Origin: Porticoccaceae bacterium
GTDB taxonomy: Bacteria > Pseudomonadota > Gammaproteobacteria > Pseudomonadales > Porticoccaceae
DNA length: 11,187 nucleotides
Reading direction: 5' to 3'
NCBI GenBank assembly: GCA_003448675.1
Contig: DLXZ01000192.1
Location: 11,660-22,846 of the forward strand
Part shown: piece by piece, positions 1,729-8,652 of the stretch
How positions within the stretch are numbered: the first letter of the stretch is position 1
Layout of the letters: each line of letters begins with the position of its first letter
Made by a program: the position numbers and the translations under genes
Notes under the pieces: model-generated
Told to the model about the DNA's origin: nothing
The model's input: the letters and a program-made list of their open reading frames with translations, nothing else
The model's database searches: none

Positions 1729-1742
1729 TTGACCCAAGTCAT
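1729..1742. promoter_or_regulatory. Candidate FNR/Anr box in the uspE / HemN-like divergent region
   Basis: TTGACCCAAGTCAT resembles the FNR/Anr consensus TTGAT-N4-ATCAA (7 of 10 positions; left half TTGAC, right half GTCAT). Its centre is at 1735.5. On the plus strand, a hexamer TAGCAT at 1765-1770 (4/6 to TATAAT, including the conserved first, second and last bases) lies where a -10 should be if the box is at -41.5, giving a predicted start near 1777. On the minus strand the equivalent -10 position is poor (CAGACT). The site therefore more likely serves the HemN-like/fnr unit, possibly as autoregulation. The match is imperfect. Confidence 0.4.
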
Positions 1743-1841: not shown

Positions 1842-3074
1842 ATGGGCAACATTAGCAAATTCTCTCGTTCCTGCGAACTTAGCGCCAACTTCGACGCAGT
1901 GCTGCTGCCCCTGTTTGATGCCCAAGCGGCAGTACGCGGGCCGACCGCGCAACGTCCGGCGGCTTCCGACGCGATCAACAACATCAGTCGACTCGGGCTG
2001 AATATATATTCACCCGCGGAACAAGTGCCATCCTACGAAAACGTGTTGTGCAGGGAAATAGCGCGCAGGGAAAACGACTATGGCGCTCATCAGTCCGTGT
2101 CTTCGTTCTGGTTTTCGGGACACCCCCTTAAGCAATTGAGTCCCGAAGCTATCACTGAACTATGCTTTCGATTTTCCAATCATTTTTCACGGGGCACCGC
2201 GCCTAAAGCCGTGCGTGGCATTTGCGCCACCACGTCGGAACTCGACAAACCGACGCTGGCGTTGCTCGCCGGCCTACAATTTAATTGCATAGAATTAACG
2301 CTGGATGCATCCATTGCCGGCAATGACCGCAGCCTGGACAAATTGAAAGCACTGGCGGAGCAGACAGCGGATTACAGTCAGATAAAACTCAAATTCAGGA
2401 TTCGTATCGGAGATCACACTCATCCGGATTTCCTGTCACGCCTGCTGGTTCAGGTAACGAACACCTCCTCTCAACAGGTTGAACTTGTCTGCTCTGGAAC
2501 ATCTACACGACCACGGCAGGAAGGGCTAAATTCCACCCGGGAATTACTGCGGAGAACCTTGCGATTCTTCAAATCACATGATTGGTGTAGCTGCGGAAAC
2601 AATTATTTTTTTTCCAAGGAGCATGCGCTGTCCGCGCTACGTGAACAACGGAAGCTAATGTTTACACCCTGGGGCTACCAAAGCTGGGATACCCAAACTC
2701 TGCTTGGGCTTGGTGTCAACGCAGTGAGCATGATAGATGGCGAGTATCAGCGCAACTGCGCCAATCCACATACTTACAATCGCTGTATCAGCGAAAACAC
2801 CGCAATACCGATAACCCGTTATAAGGTGGGCCACCAGGATACGGATTTATACCAAAACCTGCAGAACCTTCTTTGCTACCACCTGGCTCCGAAACCCGAA
2901 CAAGATACAAACTGGGCATTTGCACGGCTAATTAATAAGGGGTGGCTAACAAATCAGGGCACGAACCTGAGTTTATCCGAGGAGGGGCTGGTCAATCTGA
3001 ACCCGCTATGCAAATCGCTCTATTCCAGAAAAACAAATAACAGCTATAATGCAGCCTTGATGCCCGATCACTAA
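1842..3074 (+). CDS. HemN-like protein lacking the radical-SAM cluster motif (probable pseudoenzyme)
   Basis: The 410-aa product aligns by eye to oxygen-independent coproporphyrinogen III dehydrogenase HemN. Residues 51-60 (LGLNIYSPAE) match the HemN strand LSLYVHIPFC, 88-100 (SFWFSGHPLKQLS) match HWGGGTPTYLN, 287-305 (TLLGLGVNAVSMIDGEYQRN) match DLLGMGVSAISMIG..Y.QN, and 321-390 cover the C-terminal domain. The CxxxCxxC iron-sulfur motif is absent: about 15 residues appear deleted right after IYSPAE. The SAM-binding GGGTP is degraded to FSGHP. HemN is about 450-460 aa. The frame is otherwise uninterrupted, so this looks like a maintained protein without HemN chemistry rather than fresh decay. 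It has 12 cysteines, including CSC at 249-251. The ATG at 1842 has only a weak upstream purine run, and no other ATG/GTG/TTG in frame was found in the roughly 100 bases before it. fnr begins 37 nt downstream, so co-transcription is likely. Function is unknown; haem or metal sensing is speculation. Confidence 0.82.
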   Translation: MGNISKFSRSCELSANFDAVLLPLFDAQAAVRGPTAQRPAASDAINNISRLGLNIYSPAEQVPSYENVLCREIARRENDYGAHQSVSSFWFSGHPLKQLSPEAITELCFRFSNHFSRGTAPKAVRGICATTSELDKPTLALLAGLQFNCIELTLDASIAGNDRSLDKLKALAEQTADYSQIKLKFRIRIGDHTHPDFLSRLLVQVTNTSSQQVELVCSGTSTRPRQEGLNSTRELLRRTLRFFKSHDWCSCGNNYFFSKEHALSALREQRKLMFTPWGYQSWDTQTLLGLGVNAVSMIDGEYQRNCANPHTYNRCISENTAIPITRYKVGHQDTDLYQNLQNLLCYHLAPKPEQDTNWAFARLINKGWLTNQGTNLSLSEEGLVNLNPLCKSLYSRKTNNSYNAALMPDH

Positions 3075-3111: not shown

Positions 3112-3828
3112 ATGGCTGTTACTTGTCCACACAACCCTGAAGTCAATTGCACCGACTGCAGAATGAACTCACTATGTCTGCCCATCGCGCTGGAGCTGGA
3201 CGAGGTTGAGCGGCTTAACCAAATCGTACAAAGGGGCCGTCCCTTACAAAAAGACAGCCATGTCTACAATGTCGCTGACGAATTCAGCGCAATTTACGCG
3301 GTCCGCAGTGGCTCCATCAAAACCTACAATGTTAGCGACCAGGGAGCAATTCAGGTTACCGGTTTCTTCCTGCCTGGTGAAATTTTTGGTATCGACGGAA
3401 TCGCTCACACCCATTATGTTAGCGCCGCGGTGGCTATGGAAACATCGGCCATTTGCGAGATCCCCTTTAGCCGACTGGAGGAACTCAGCATGACCATGCC
3501 CTCCTTGCAGCGGCACTTTTTTAAGCTGATGAGCAAGGAAATCACCAACGACCAGCAACTGATCACCCTGTTGAGCAAAAACAGCGCCGAGGAACGCGTA
3601 GCCACACTGTTATTAAGCATTTCTTCCCGCAACGCAAAACGCAATTTATCCAGCTTACGTTTTCGCCTGCCCATGTCGCGGGCCGATATCGGCAACTACC
3701 TTGGGCTTACCGTGGAAACTGTCAGCCGCGTTTTCAGCCGCTTCCAGAAACAGGGGCTACTAGAAGTCGATAAAAAGGAAATTGAAATAAAGGACATCGA
3801 TGCGCTACAAGAGCTGTCTAATATCTAA
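3112..3828 (+). CDS. fnr: FNR/Anr-family oxygen-sensing transcriptional regulator
   Basis: A 238-aa CRP/FNR-superfamily regulator. N-terminal Cys13, Cys16 and Cys22 have the FNR spacing C-x2-C-x5-C, and Cys115 supplies the fourth ligand, so the oxygen-labile [4Fe-4S] cluster should form. Cys5 is extra. The effector/beta-roll domain runs to about residue 125, followed by the long dimerisation helix. The helix-turn-helix is near residues 187-213; its recognition helix LTVETVSR carries Glu202, Ser205 and Arg206, as in E. coli FNR, which predicts binding to TTGAT-N4-ATCAA. The ATG at 3112 follows AGGAA. The gene is 37 nt behind the HemN-like ORF and probably shares its transcript. Candidate target sites lie at 1729-1742 and 4821-4834. 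It could equally be named anr. Confidence 0.96.
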   Translation: MAVTCPHNPEVNCTDCRMNSLCLPIALELDEVERLNQIVQRGRPLQKDSHVYNVADEFSAIYAVRSGSIKTYNVSDQGAIQVTGFFLPGEIFGIDGIAHTHYVSAAVAMETSAICEIPFSRLEELSMTMPSLQRHFFKLMSKEITNDQQLITLLSKNSAEERVATLLLSISSRNAKRNLSSLRFRLPMSRADIGNYLGLTVETVSRVFSRFQKQGLLEVDKKEIEIKDIDALQELSNI

Positions 3829-4072: not shown

Positions 4073-4759
4073 TTAAAACTTATAGCCGACACCCACCATA
4101 TAAACCCAGGGGTCGATATCGACATCGGCTTCAACGCGATCACCGCTATCAAACTTGAACTCAGCTTCGGTATCAATGTCCAGATACCATACAGAGGCAT
4201 TTAGCACCCAGTTGTCATCCAGCGCATAGTCAACGCCTATCTGGGCAGCAAGGCCAAAAGAGTCATCCAGGTCTAGATCACCATCACTTCCTAAAACTCC
4301 TTCAAGATCGCTATCAACACCTTCGGAAAAGAAGACCGTGTAATTAATACCAATACCCACATAGGGTTGCAGCGCAGAGCTGGGATCCATCGGGAAATAC
4401 TGCAGGGTTACTGTGGGTGGCAGGTGCTTGGTATCACCGGCGTCCACGCCAAGGCCATTGGCCTTTATATCATGCTCAAAAGGCGTTGCGGCCAGCACGC
4501 CAAGACCCAGGTTTGGACTCAGCATATAGGTCAACGTAAGGCCCAGAGCCTCTGAATTGTCGACACCGACACCGGTACCAGATAAGTTGACACCGTTAAG
4601 CTCCAGGTTGGAACTGTCTTCGTCTGGCTGGACCGAAGCGACACCAGCTCGCACAATCAAATCACCCGTGTCATAGGCCATAGCGCCCGTAGCGCCACCC
4701 AGCAATCCCGTAGCCAGGATGCCCCCAGCGATAACTGAAGCTGATTTGTGATTTCCCAT
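4073..4759 (-). CDS. ompW: OmpW-family outer membrane protein
   Basis: OmpW proteins are small eight-stranded beta-barrels of the outer membrane with a hydrophobic channel, linked to stress, iron and oxygen responses. The 228-aa precursor has a typical signal peptide: Lys5, a Gly/Ala/Leu-rich core, and cleavage predicted after AMA at residue 28. The mature start, YDTGDLIVRAGVASVQPDEDSS, is the OmpW family opening. The middle has the family block LPPTVTLQYFP followed by LQPYVGIGINYTVFF. The protein ends ...YMVGVGYKF, with the C-terminal Phe used for barrel assembly. It is rich in Asp, consistent with a salt-adapted host. The start at 4759 has GAGAGGGG just upstream. ompW is under FNR control in E. 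coli, and a matching box is seen at its promoter here. Confidence 0.93.
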   Translation of the reverse strand: MGNHKSASVIAGGILATGLLGGATGAMAYDTGDLIVRAGVASVQPDEDSSNLELNGVNLSGTGVGVDNSEALGLTLTYMLSPNLGLGVLAATPFEHDIKANGLGVDAGDTKHLPPTVTLQYFPMDPSSALQPYVGIGINYTVFFSEGVDSDLEGVLGSDGDLDLDDSFGLAAQIGVDYALDDNWVLNASVWYLDIDTEAEFKFDSGDRVEADVDIDPWVYMVGVGYKF

Positions 4760-4785
4760 AGCGAATTCCCCTCTCTTAATTAATG

Positions 4786-4834
4786 CCCGATCATTACATC
4801 AGTTTCGGTAAAAACCGACCTTGATCCAGGTTAA
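4786..4834 (-). promoter_or_regulatory. Candidate class II FNR-dependent promoter of ompW
   Basis: Read on the minus strand, TTAACCTGGATCAA (4834-4821) matches the FNR consensus at 8 of 10 half-site bases, with a perfect ATCAA half. Its centre is 4827.5. Downstream, an extended -10 TGATGTAAT (TG plus TGTAAT, hexamer 4798-4793, 5/6 to TATAAT) gives a predicted start at 4786. The box centre is then exactly at -41.5, the position of FNR at class II activated promoters. The leader would be 26 nt with a purine-rich ribosome site. The geometry was computed from coordinates; binding is inferred. Confidence 0.6.
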
Positions 4835-4882
4835 CTGAAGAGAAGCAAAACGCGCCGTAGCAGACACCGACGTCTGGGTAAA

Positions 4883-5188
4883 TCAGGCTTTACCGTGGCA
4901 GGGAGGAGACTCTGGCGAGTGTTCTTTATCCGACCACTCATCCGGGGTATAAGCGTGAATCGCCAGAGCATGAACACCGGCCCTTAGCTCGTCAGCCAGG
5001 GTTTTATAGACTTGCTGATGCCGCGACACAGGTCGTTGATTCGCAAATGCACTGCTAACAATGATCAGTTTGAAATGGGTTTCCGCATCAGGTGGCACGT
5101 TATGCATATGGCTTTCGTTCTCCACCTGAAGCAGCGCCGGAGACAAAGCCGCCGTCAACTTACTTTCTATCTGCTGCTGTACGGACAT
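4883..5188 (-). CDS. bolA: BolA-family protein
   Basis: A 101-aa protein of the BolA/IbaG family. These proteins pair with monothiol glutaredoxins through a shared [2Fe-2S] cluster and can act as transcriptional or iron-sulfur trafficking factors. Family marks are NESHMHNVP at about 24-32, THFKLIIVSSAF at 37-48, RHQQVYKTL with invariant Arg56-His57, and HALAIHAYTPDEW near 73-85, with His78 a candidate metal ligand. The extra C-terminal tail (HSPESPPCHGKA) includes a Cys-His pair. The start at 5188 is 15 nt downstream of the oadB stop, so it is probably translated from the oad transcript. No independent promoter is obvious in the gap, and the ribosome site is weak. Confidence 0.93.
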   Translation of the reverse strand: MSVQQQIESKLTAALSPALLQVENESHMHNVPPDAETHFKLIIVSSAFANQRPVSRHQQVYKTLADELRAGVHALAIHAYTPDEWSDKEHSPESPPCHGKA

Positions 5189-5203: not shown

Positions 5204-6376
5204 TTAAAGTCCAGACACCAGGGAAATCATCACCCCGGCGGCGATCGCCGAGCCGATAACACCAGCCACATTGGGGCCCATGGCATGCATCAGGAGGAAG
5301 TTATGGGGGTTTGCTTCGAGGCCAATCTTATTGGAAACCCGCGCCGCCATCGGCACGGCGGAGACACCGGCAGAGCCGATGAGCGGATTAACCGGCGTCT
5401 TACTGAAGGCATTCATCAGCTTGGCCATCAGAATGCCTGCGGCAGTGCCTATACAAAAAGCCAGCATACCCAGCGCCAGAATACCCAGGGTTTCCCAGTT
5501 GAGAAACTTTTCGGCGCTCATTTTCGAGCCCACGCCCAAGCCGAGAAATATGGTGACAATATTGATCAGTGCATTCTGCGCGGTATCGGAGAGCCGGTTC
5601 ACCACACCACATTCACGCATCAAATTACCGAAGCAGAACATCCCCAGCAGCGGTGCCGCACTAGGTAAAAACATACCCACCAGTAGCAATAGCATCAGCG
5701 GAAAGACAATTTTTTCCTGGGTGGAAACAGGTCGCAGCTGCTCCATTTTGATGGCCCGCTCCTGCTCGGTTGTGAGCGCGCGCATGATCGGTGGCTGGAT
5801 GATGGGTACCAACGCCATATAGGAATAGGCGGCGACGGCAACAGCGCCCAGCAATTCCGGGGAGAGCTTACTGGTAACAAAGATAGCCGTGGGTCCATCG
5901 GCGCCGCCAATAATACCAATGGATGCAGCATCCCGAATGGAAAAATCCAGAATGCCGAAACTGCTCAGAGCCACGGCTCCCAGTACCGTGGCAAAAATAC
6001 CCACCTGCGCGGCGGCACCCAGCAACAAGGTCTTGGGATTAGCCAGCAGAGGGCCAAAATCTGTCATGGCCCCCACGCCCATAAAAATAATCAACGGAAA
6101 CATGCCCGAGGCAATACCTGCGTTGTATATGTAATAGAGCAGGCCACCCGGACTTTCAAGATTGCCTACGGCATCATAGACCGGTGCAGCGTCAAAGCCG
6201 GCTACTGGAACATTGATAAGGATGGTGCCCATACCAATAGGCACCAGTAAAAGCGGTTCAAAGCCCTTGCGAATCGCCAGAAACAGCAAGCCCAGGCCCA
6301 CGGCCATCATAACGACATTGCCGGGTTCGATATTGGCAACACCCGAGCTCTGCCACAATTGCGTGAATTGATCCAT
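5204..6376 (-). CDS. oadB: Oxaloacetate decarboxylase sodium pump, beta subunit
   Basis: OadB is the integral membrane subunit. It decarboxylates carboxybiotin carried by OadA and couples this to sodium export. The 390-aa sequence is a run of hydrophobic helices with the family motifs [18 protein letters not shown] (from residue 153; Asp160 is probably the sodium/proton-handling Asp of the GGADGPT loop) and [18 protein letters not shown] (330-347). The closing segment [21 protein letters not shown] is also conserved. N-terminal helices begin at about residue 22. The start at 6376 lies 68 nt after the oadA stop. The closely related methylmalonyl-CoA decarboxylase and glutaconyl-CoA decarboxylase beta subunits share this fold, but the adjacent OadA and OadG favour oxaloacetate. 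Confidence 0.96.
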
Positions 6377-6444
6377 AAATTATCCGAGTTAAGCCTGCCT
6401 CAGCAGCGTCCTGTACCGATCAAAATTTTTGCCAGCATCGCGAG

Positions 6445-8235
6445 TCAGACGATGGTAACCAGGGTATCGCCTACCGCGACACTGTTGCCTTCCTGGACGC
6501 ACACCTCGCCTATCGTACCGCCACGAGAGGCGCTAACCGCAGTTTCCATCTTCATGGCTTCCAGGATAATCACGTTCTCTCCCTCGGCCACCTGCTGGCC
6601 TGGCTGCACCAGGACCTTGAAGATATTACCCGCCAGCGGCGCGGCCACCGGCTCGCCACCCGCCACGGGTGCCGGCGCCGCAACAACATCTCCGGCATCT
6701 ACGCCAGCGCCGCCGACGGGCACGATGGCACTGATATCACCGCCATCGGAGACCACAACAGTATAAGTTTTCCCTTCCACCTCAACGGTATAGATCGCTT
6801 CACCACTGTCTGTGGTAACCGTTGACACGGCCCCGGTGGGTACTGGTTCAAAGGCGTCGGGATTGTTACGGTTTTCGAGAAACTTCAGTCCCACCTGAGG
6901 GAACAGAGCGTAAATCAACACGTCGTCGATCCGTTGTTCACCATCATGGAGGGAAAGATTCTTCTCCTCCGCTACCTGTTCCAGATCGGCGATCAACGTG
7001 TCCAGCTCGTCCTCAAGCAGATCAGCCGGACGCACGGTAATCACCTCGGCGCCTTCCAGCACGCGAGTCTGCAATTCGGCATTAACCGGTGCCGGGGTTG
7101 CGCCGTATTCACCTTTGAGTACCCCGGCTGTTTCCTTCGAGATACTTTTATAGCGCTCGCCGGTTAACACATTAAGCACCGCCTGGGTGCCAACAATCTG
7201 CGATGTAGGTGTCACCAATGGGATAACGCCCAGATCCTCTCGCACCCGAGGAATTTCCGCCAACACCTCATCCAGACGATCAACAGCGCCCTGCTCACGC
7301 AGTTGGTTTTCCATATTGGTCAGCATGCCGCCCGGCACCTGAGCCACGAGGATGCGGGAATCCACACCTTTCAGTGAACCTTCGAACTGAGCATACTTCT
7401 TGCGTACTTCGCGAAAATAGGCGGCGATCTGTTCGAGCACCTTAATATCCAGGCCCGTATCACGCTCCGTTCCCTCGAGAATGGCCACCAGCGACTCCGT
7501 CGGCGAATGACCATAGGTCATGGACATTGAGGAGATGGCGGTATCGACATTGTCGATGCCCGCCTCGATACATTTCAGATAGGTGGCGGTCGACATACCG
7601 GTGGTCGCGTGGCACTGCATGTGCACGGGAATATCAATGGCCTGCTTGAGGCGCGAAACCAGCTCGTAACCGGTGTAAGGGGTCAACAAACCCGCCATGT
7701 CCTTGATGCATACCGAGTCGGCGCCCATATCTTCAAGATGCCTGGACAAATCGACCCACAGGTCGATGGTGTGTACCGGGCTGACGGTGTAGGAAATGGT
7801 GCCCTGTGCATGTTTGCCGACATTTTTCACTGCCTTGAGGGCGGTTTCCAGGTTACGCATGTCATTCATGGCGTCAAACACCCGGAATACGTCAACGCCA
7901 TTGATGGCCGCCCTTTCAACAAACCGAGTCACCACGTCGTCGGCATAGTGGCGATAACCCAGAATATTCTGGCCCCGAAACAGCATCTGCTGGGGCGTAT
8001 TAGGCATCGCTTTTTTCAGTTCGCGGATACGGTCCCAGGGGTCTTCACCCAGATAGCGGATACAGGCATCAAAAGTGGCGCCGCCCCAGCTCTCCAGCGA
8101 CCAGAAGCCAACGCTGTCAAGCAGGGAAGCAATCGGCAACATGTCATCTATACGCAACCGGGTGGCCAACAGAGACTGATGCGCATCGCGCAGTACCACA
8201 TCGGTCAAGCCCAGGGCTTTTTTATTCTCTACCAT
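6445..8235 (-). CDS. oadA: Oxaloacetate decarboxylase, alpha subunit (biotin-dependent carboxyltransferase)
   Basis: OadA transfers the carboxyl group of oxaloacetate to biotin, releasing pyruvate. The 596 aa comprise an N-terminal carboxyltransferase TIM barrel opening with [16 protein letters not shown] (Asp17 is the metal ligand). CIKDMAG holds Lys178, the expected carbamylated lysine. The metal motif reads [10 protein letters not shown] at 205-214, with His209. After the conserved [12 protein letters not shown] block and the C-terminal carboxylase domain comes an Ala/Pro/Gly-rich linker at about 505-530, then a biotinyl domain with EAMKMET and biotin on Lys562, 34 residues from the end. 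One oddity: position 207, His in related enzymes, is Gln here. The ATG at 8235 follows GAGGA. Between oadG and oadB, it belongs to one operon. Confidence 0.96.
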
Positions 8236-8330
8236 GGATCCTCACTGTAACGCCCTTGTCTGGGCTGATCGCTTTTAGTTCTTGGGAAAATTCATCGACA
8301 GCGGTGGCCTGTTTCATGCGAACGTGTAAT

Positions 8331-8582
8331 TTAGCGCTTCCGGTGTTGGTCGATCGCCGCCTTAATAATTTTTGCGGTGAGGGGATCAACGCCGCTACCG
8401 CCTCCGCCCTCGGGGATGGCAACAGCGCTTTCGGGCTCCGGCGCATACTTCGCCAGCACACGAGACATGACCGCTATAGCCAGCACCAGCACCAGCAGAA
8501 ATGAAAACACGGTGCCCATCCCATAAAGCATCATATCAACGCCCTGCGCCATCAGCGTGCTTGGCTGGGTAACGTCGGACAT
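8331..8582 (-). CDS. oadG: Oxaloacetate decarboxylase, gamma subunit
   Basis: OadG is the small membrane subunit that holds the alpha and beta subunits together and speeds decarboxylation. The 83-aa product beginning MSDVTQ has a single hydrophobic helix at about residues 18-40, then a flexible Pro/Gly/Glu stretch (PEPESAVAIPEGGGGSG) and a basic C-terminal helix ending DQHRKR. This is the usual gamma-subunit plan and length. The ATG at 8582 is chosen because GAGGAG (8595-8590) sits seven bases upstream. A longer reading from a TTG at 8597 would overlap that ribosome site. It is the first gene of oadGAB, with 95 nt between its stop and oadA. Confidence 0.9.
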   Translation of the reverse strand: MSDVTQPSTLMAQGVDMMLYGMGTVFSFLLVLVLAIAVMSRVLAKYAPEPESAVAIPEGGGGSGVDPLTAKIIKAAIDQHRKR

Positions 8583-8652
8583 CGCTATACTCCTCAACGG
8601 TTTTTGCAGGAACTAATCTCGCGGGGCTAGAAGATATCGCAGCCCAATTTCG

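Follow-up and report, generated by a model that had tools for sequence, protein, structure and literature searches.

The DNA analysed here, referred to as the window, is an 11,187-nucleotide stretch from a member of the Porticoccaceae. It carries a gene whose product has the fold of HemN, the oxygen-independent coproporphyrinogen III dehydrogenase, and lies directly ahead of fnr, the gene for the textbook oxygen sensor FNR. The features concerned are listed below.

1729..1742, + strand: predicted FNR-type box TTGACCCAAGTCAT, 99 bp before the start codon; alone not significant
1842..3074, + strand: gene for a probably HemN-derived pseudoenzyme of 410 aa, without CxxxCxxC, GGGTP, RYTSYP and RNFQGY
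2112..2126, + strand: FSGHP codons (residues 91-95), by alignment the site of HemN GGGTP
2259..2282, + strand: ALLAGLQF codons (residues 140-147), the family signature AL..GL.F
3112..3828, + strand: fnr, the next gene in the same direction, encoding a regulator with CxxCx5C cysteines

In the 37-bp gap between the pseudoenzyme gene and fnr there is no terminator-like site on the + strand, and Rfam at its gathering score gives 0 matches to known RNA elements in the window. Beyond fnr, on the - strand, lie a gene for an OmpW-family porin (4073-4759), found near fnr in many other loci of the family too, and a gene set (5204-8597) resembling what we take to be a sodium-pumping oxaloacetate decarboxylase.

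A preliminary description had read the open reading frame as a relative of HemN along its length, with 410 intact codons, CxxxCxxC lost and GGGTP turned into FSGHP, and this stands on every point. The HemN fold is kept along the whole 410-aa chain, which matches PDB 1olt over 361 residues, while the HemN profile TIGR00538 recognises the protein at 33.4 bits, under its curated cut-off of 324.95 for membership. The two motif changes are visible in the alignment to HemN and are not peculiar to the window: in the 57 pseudoenzymes that we read, all of them with an open frame, CxxxCxxC, GGGTP, RYTSYP and RNFQGY each occur 0 times. RYTSYP is present in 91 and RNFQGY in 92 of 95 true HemN, a set picked by having CxxxCxxC and GGGTP, so that these last two motifs are universal there by definition. 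The GGGTP strand is a SAM contact in HemN. The motifs GPRYTSYPTA and RNFQGYTT are called required for HemN activity in the available text of PMC10320005. From the missing cluster motif we infer that coproporphyrinogen dehydrogenase activity is ruled out.

Most of what the family has kept is in the first barrel half (E72, T105 and the AL..GL.F helix); G252, G291, N305 and Y312 follow further on. The signature AL..GL.F occurs in 57/57 pseudoenzymes and in 4/95 true HemN. In alignment A3 the invariant residues are M1, E72, A140, L141, G144, L145, F147 and Y312, most of them hydrophobic or at helix positions. Among the 57, no Cys or His is common to the whole family; C345 is present in 24 of the 26 A3 rows reaching that position, where HemN also has a Cys. 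A new Fe-S or haem motif of simple pattern was sought and rejected (CxxC 3/57, the HemW motif HNxxYW 0/57, and the cysteines and histidines as above).

Apart from the window protein itself, a protein search returned 21 homologues of 35-69% identity, to which searches with alignments A1 and A2 added none and three, respectively. Within the window's family the gene is matched in 31 of 112 genomes, spread over 7 of 14 genera, and each of the 31 copies was read. A search of 144 genomes from another family in this order (f16) shows that it carries the pseudoenzyme as well: 26 of the 28 loci read lack the HemN motifs and two are true HemN, the 26 being a lower bound drawn from part of the matches. 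These 26 comprise 13 long and 13 short forms, the latter of 264-320 aa (counted from the first ATG), without the C-terminal domain and yet still ahead of fnr. A model of a short form (pLDDT 83.7) has 1olt as its best Foldseek match still, at E 1.9e-9. Seven further loci (L003-L009) look like those of G300, G301 and five genomes of genus g126 in layout, lengths and sequence starts and were not counted again. The window's own assembly is 76% complete, and G301, of the same genus at 98%, is the better evidence. Among carriers of the window's family, the G374 protein is 70% identical to one from Candidatus Reddybacter, and that of G107 is 99% identical to one from Porticoccus sp. W117, so that work in a named genus is possible.

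Across the class, 220 of 369 genomes have a match, and of 29 loci read among the 219 matching genomes other than the window's, 28 hold both HemN motifs. The remaining one (L159, G750) has CDTVCQCG and SGGTIA in their place with RSFQGY nearly kept, and the stretch read there contains no fnr. Family f6 (L039, G205) has a further HemN relative whose motifs are damaged (CNQACQYQ, GGCTA, GLLGYAP) and which does not adjoin fnr within the stretch read; it is probably a separate loss of HemN chemistry. Viral contigs scanned with the window protein, a search that reaches close relatives only, gave no match. In the literature searched, which held few subscription journals, no title or abstract opening reports an fnr-linked HemN without its motifs.

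A search for orthologues beside fnr, which the preliminary description had proposed, finds fnr as the next gene downstream, in the same direction, for all 57 motif-less members (31/31 and 26/26 in the two families); the gap has a median of 94 bp and runs from -8 to 259. A catalytic HemN occupies that place in other families of the order, with fnr downstream on the same strand in 17 of 25 loci read, a share that is biased upwards because these loci were the best profile matches after the window's family, and one of the 17 is a motif-less f16 member. The closeness of true hemN to anr in Pseudomonas, also noted at the outset, agrees with the available text of PMC6588701, in which the two genes lie side by side or have a single gene between them, with Anr-box-like sequences ahead of hemN in every species analysed there.

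Descent of the pseudoenzyme in place, from an fnr-linked hemN, is likely on the trees and profiles but not proven. One 100/100 branch of a 66-row tree has the 18 pseudoenzymes all to the same side; a branch at 98/87 unites them with eight fnr-linked HemN alone, another at 96/92 with fifteen fnr-linked HemN alone, and a 100/99 branch separates them from all 15 true HemN of the two carrier families in the set. A 52-row tree with only the four least diverged pseudoenzymes groups them with six fnr-linked HemN at 91/92 and parts them from all true HemN of the carrier families at 99/99, several branches between being weak. An order-wide profile points the same way, with matches at E 1e-53 or better for 13 of 16 fnr-linked HemN and for none of 8 unlinked ones (L015-L039). 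Among the matches listed, the four best HemN (L231-L234) all adjoin fnr; the best scores 241 bits, the true HemN of the carriers G107 and G181 about 157. However, an AU test did not reject a single clade of the four pseudoenzymes, the true HemN of the carrier families and three others (p 0.177, with long branches in play).

Loss of motifs, together with the absence of the gene from some genomes, could be taken as the mark of a decaying pseudogene or an assembly artefact. This is extremely improbable, as all 57 frames are open, the gene is present in single-contig genomes (e.g., G181, G242, G377 and G209), and dN/dS lies far below 1, on which grounds the pseudogene was rejected. In the window's family, 32 pairs above 55% identity were compared, two of them saturated and many others with dS above 1; of the 30 measurable pairs, 28 give 0.059-0.166 and two from genus g123 give 0.31-0.39, with fnr at 0.00-0.13 in the same pairs. 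In f16, seven unsaturated pairs of 32 give 0.02-0.23. Neutral evolution and orthologues bearing CxxxCxxC, which would have spoken against an old hemN retained for another role after losing catalysis, were not found, and that proposal is well supported by the lost motifs, the purifying selection and the hemN place ahead of fnr. The particular roles first suggested for it, namely porphyrin binding, partnership with FNR or control of haem supply, are tentative.

If the gene no longer makes a coproporphyrinogen dehydrogenase, do its carriers have one elsewhere? The second, intact hemN that was to be looked for is present in part: a true HemN over the cut-off is encoded by 41 of 57 carriers (19/31 in the window's family, 22/26 in f16) and lacking in 16. 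The pseudoenzyme is thus kept with and without HemN. The 16 comprise all 12 carriers of genera g1, g123 and g126, three of g115 (97-99% complete) and G805 (68%), and 13 of them are at least 90% complete. HemF, which needs O2, was found in 15 of 16 genomes searched, including 14 of 15 HemN-less carriers tested (G350 being the exception and G805 outside the test); among these carriers, the window's assembly has it in two pieces. The sixteenth genome, G298, is without the pseudoenzyme and has HemF. A catalytically dead companion that stabilises or adjusts the true HemN or HemF would fit the presence of one or the other in most carriers. We regard such a partnership as rather improbable: the pseudoenzyme is retained in the HemN-less genomes, in g126 pairs among them at a dN/dS of 0.08-0.17, and in 27 of 27 loci of the window's family there is no fnr closer than about 1.5 kb to the true HemN.

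Another possibility is that haem, a porphyrin or coproporphyrinogen still binds in the barrel, and that the protein serves as its buffer, carrier or sensor while oxygen is too scarce for HemF. The HemN fold along the whole 410-aa form, the FNR-type box and the HemF of the HemN-less carriers all suit this, and a haem-binding HemN relative exists in CgdH2 of Campylobacter jejuni, described as a haem chaperone in the accessible part of PMC10320005. RYTSYP and RNFQGY, however, are gone from 57/57 members, though remnants of the latter such as RNLRGY (G249) are visible; HNxxYW is likewise absent, no Cys or His is family-wide, and 13 forms dispense with the C-terminal domain. We therefore lean against HemN-style porphyrin binding as a common function, given the lost substrate and SAM motifs and the short forms, and consider a haem- or porphyrin-binding protein of any kind unlikely. 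Barrels of the HemN type often change activity, and a new, non-radical reaction would accord with the PWG pattern that replaces NFQG in 26/31 proteins of the window's family. The same pattern is found in 0/26 f16 members, and invariant residues are few throughout and of the kind described above, leaving a different enzyme with only a slim chance.

Like the pseudoenzyme, the HemN of sister families stands upstream of fnr with an FNR-type box, but HemN has the four motifs and mostly lacks AL..GL.F. HemW, the haem chaperone, is a precedent for a HemN-type fold in binding rather than in the coproporphyrinogen reaction, but it keeps CxxxCxxC, GGGTP and HNxxYW, none of which the pseudoenzyme family has; the window genome encodes its own HemW (L001) with HNLNYW. 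CgdH2 had its Fe-S cluster reconstituted and was placed with MenK, as far as the available portion of PMC10320005 relates, whereas the pseudoenzymes lack the cluster motif and group with fnr-linked HemN.

The promoter may offer a further link to FNR. The window box is three mismatches from the strict consensus TTGATN4ATCAA and is missed by a scan of the window at up to two mismatches, which gives 6 matches against 4.4 by chance. Across the family, the looser pattern TTGA[TC]N4[AG]TCA[TA], written after the sites were seen, occurs within 400 bp upstream at 54/57 loci against 802/11400 random 400-bp stretches of the same loci. With the strict consensus, scanned over 400 bp ahead of the start and 60 bp past it and with 21 of the 26 f16 loci included, a box at up to one mismatch precedes 25 of 52 members (0.72 in shuffles, which preserved single-base composition only) and 13 of 20 true fnr-linked hemN (0.34); at up to two mismatches it precedes 49 of 52 members against 9.5. 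Random real stretches of 29 loci of the window's family give 1.0 and 11.1 of 29 at these two thresholds. Control of the pseudoenzyme gene by FNR is thus well supported by these motif counts, though not proven. The box can also serve fnr alone, since in genus g5 a box at up to one mismatch lies ahead of fnr in 6 of 7 genomes read, the pseudoenzyme gene being absent.

Genomes without the gene speak both for and against a tie to FNR. The gene is dispensable, being absent with fnr kept in G298 and G375 and matched in none of the g5 genomes, where fnr is common, and this counts against FNR as the partner. In G375 (L125, about 4602-4934) a remnant of the upstream region remains, with a decayed FNR-type box TTTATACAAATGAA. 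G371 has a second fnr copy without a pseudoenzyme gene beside it (G371:C72:160820-161527, L126), which is changing faster than the linked copy. Each of six gene-less lineages shows more unique changes in FNR than a gene-bearing relative does, a comparison made after looking at the FNR tree: 28/19, 31/14 and 30/18 for G298 (28/19, against G000, not being significant; p 0.19), 12/4 and 14/6 for G375, 20/4 for the second copy of G371 (16/6 with another outgroup), 38/9 and 33/10 for G352, 42/14 for G378, and near equal counts of 18/15 and 19/17 for G296. Control genes were compared in two of these lineages: they are near equal in G375 (Usp and MsrA; 20/19, 19/19) and mixed in G298 (Usp, MsrA lying outside the stretch; 31/26, 29/21, 20/29). 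Figures for G298 with G301 as outgroup (40/10 and 40/3 in FNR, 127/96 and 107/48 in other genes) were set aside because G298 lies outside G000, G300 and G301 in the FNR tree. The faster change of FNR is only suggestive of a coupling to the pseudoenzyme, and it may instead come from a relaxed FNR regulon or low-oxygen life style.

Since the catalytic machinery is lost and yet the gene is conserved ahead of fnr in many relatives, the pseudoenzyme probably has a new job in the low-oxygen response. In an ancestor shared by the two families, an fnr-linked hemN would have been stripped of its substrate and [4Fe-4S]/SAM motifs, stayed the first gene ahead of fnr with an FNR-type promoter box, and thereafter been preserved under purifying selection as a protein without catalysis, which is most likely produced together with FNR when FNR is active at low oxygen. 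It would then use the first half of its barrel, the conserved one, to bind a partner. Protein binding is favoured over HemN-like ligand binding because that half is kept, the cluster, SAM and substrate motifs are gone and 13 members do without the C-terminal domain; linkage, box and FNR rates make FNR or its response the most economical partner, and we lean towards an FNR-related role on the same three grounds. That the former hemN product, made alongside FNR, binds a partner and so modulates FNR or the FNR response is our tentative reading, put at a little short of an even chance. A narrower version, in which the dead HemN is a dedicated partner that attaches to FNR, or to its complex with RNA polymerase, and adjusts the response from an operon that FNR itself induces, is possible though somewhat doubtful; if true, a pseudoenzyme would have been built from an enzyme gene once under FNR control.

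Catalytic HemN, the 410-aa pseudoenzymes and the remnants of 264-320 aa form a natural series and thereby show which part of a radical-SAM fold can persist once its chemistry is gone. To our knowledge, FNR is usually described as acting without a dedicated protein partner. A conserved and apparently FNR-controlled dead HemN, tied to fnr in two families, would add a new piece to the FNR circuit.
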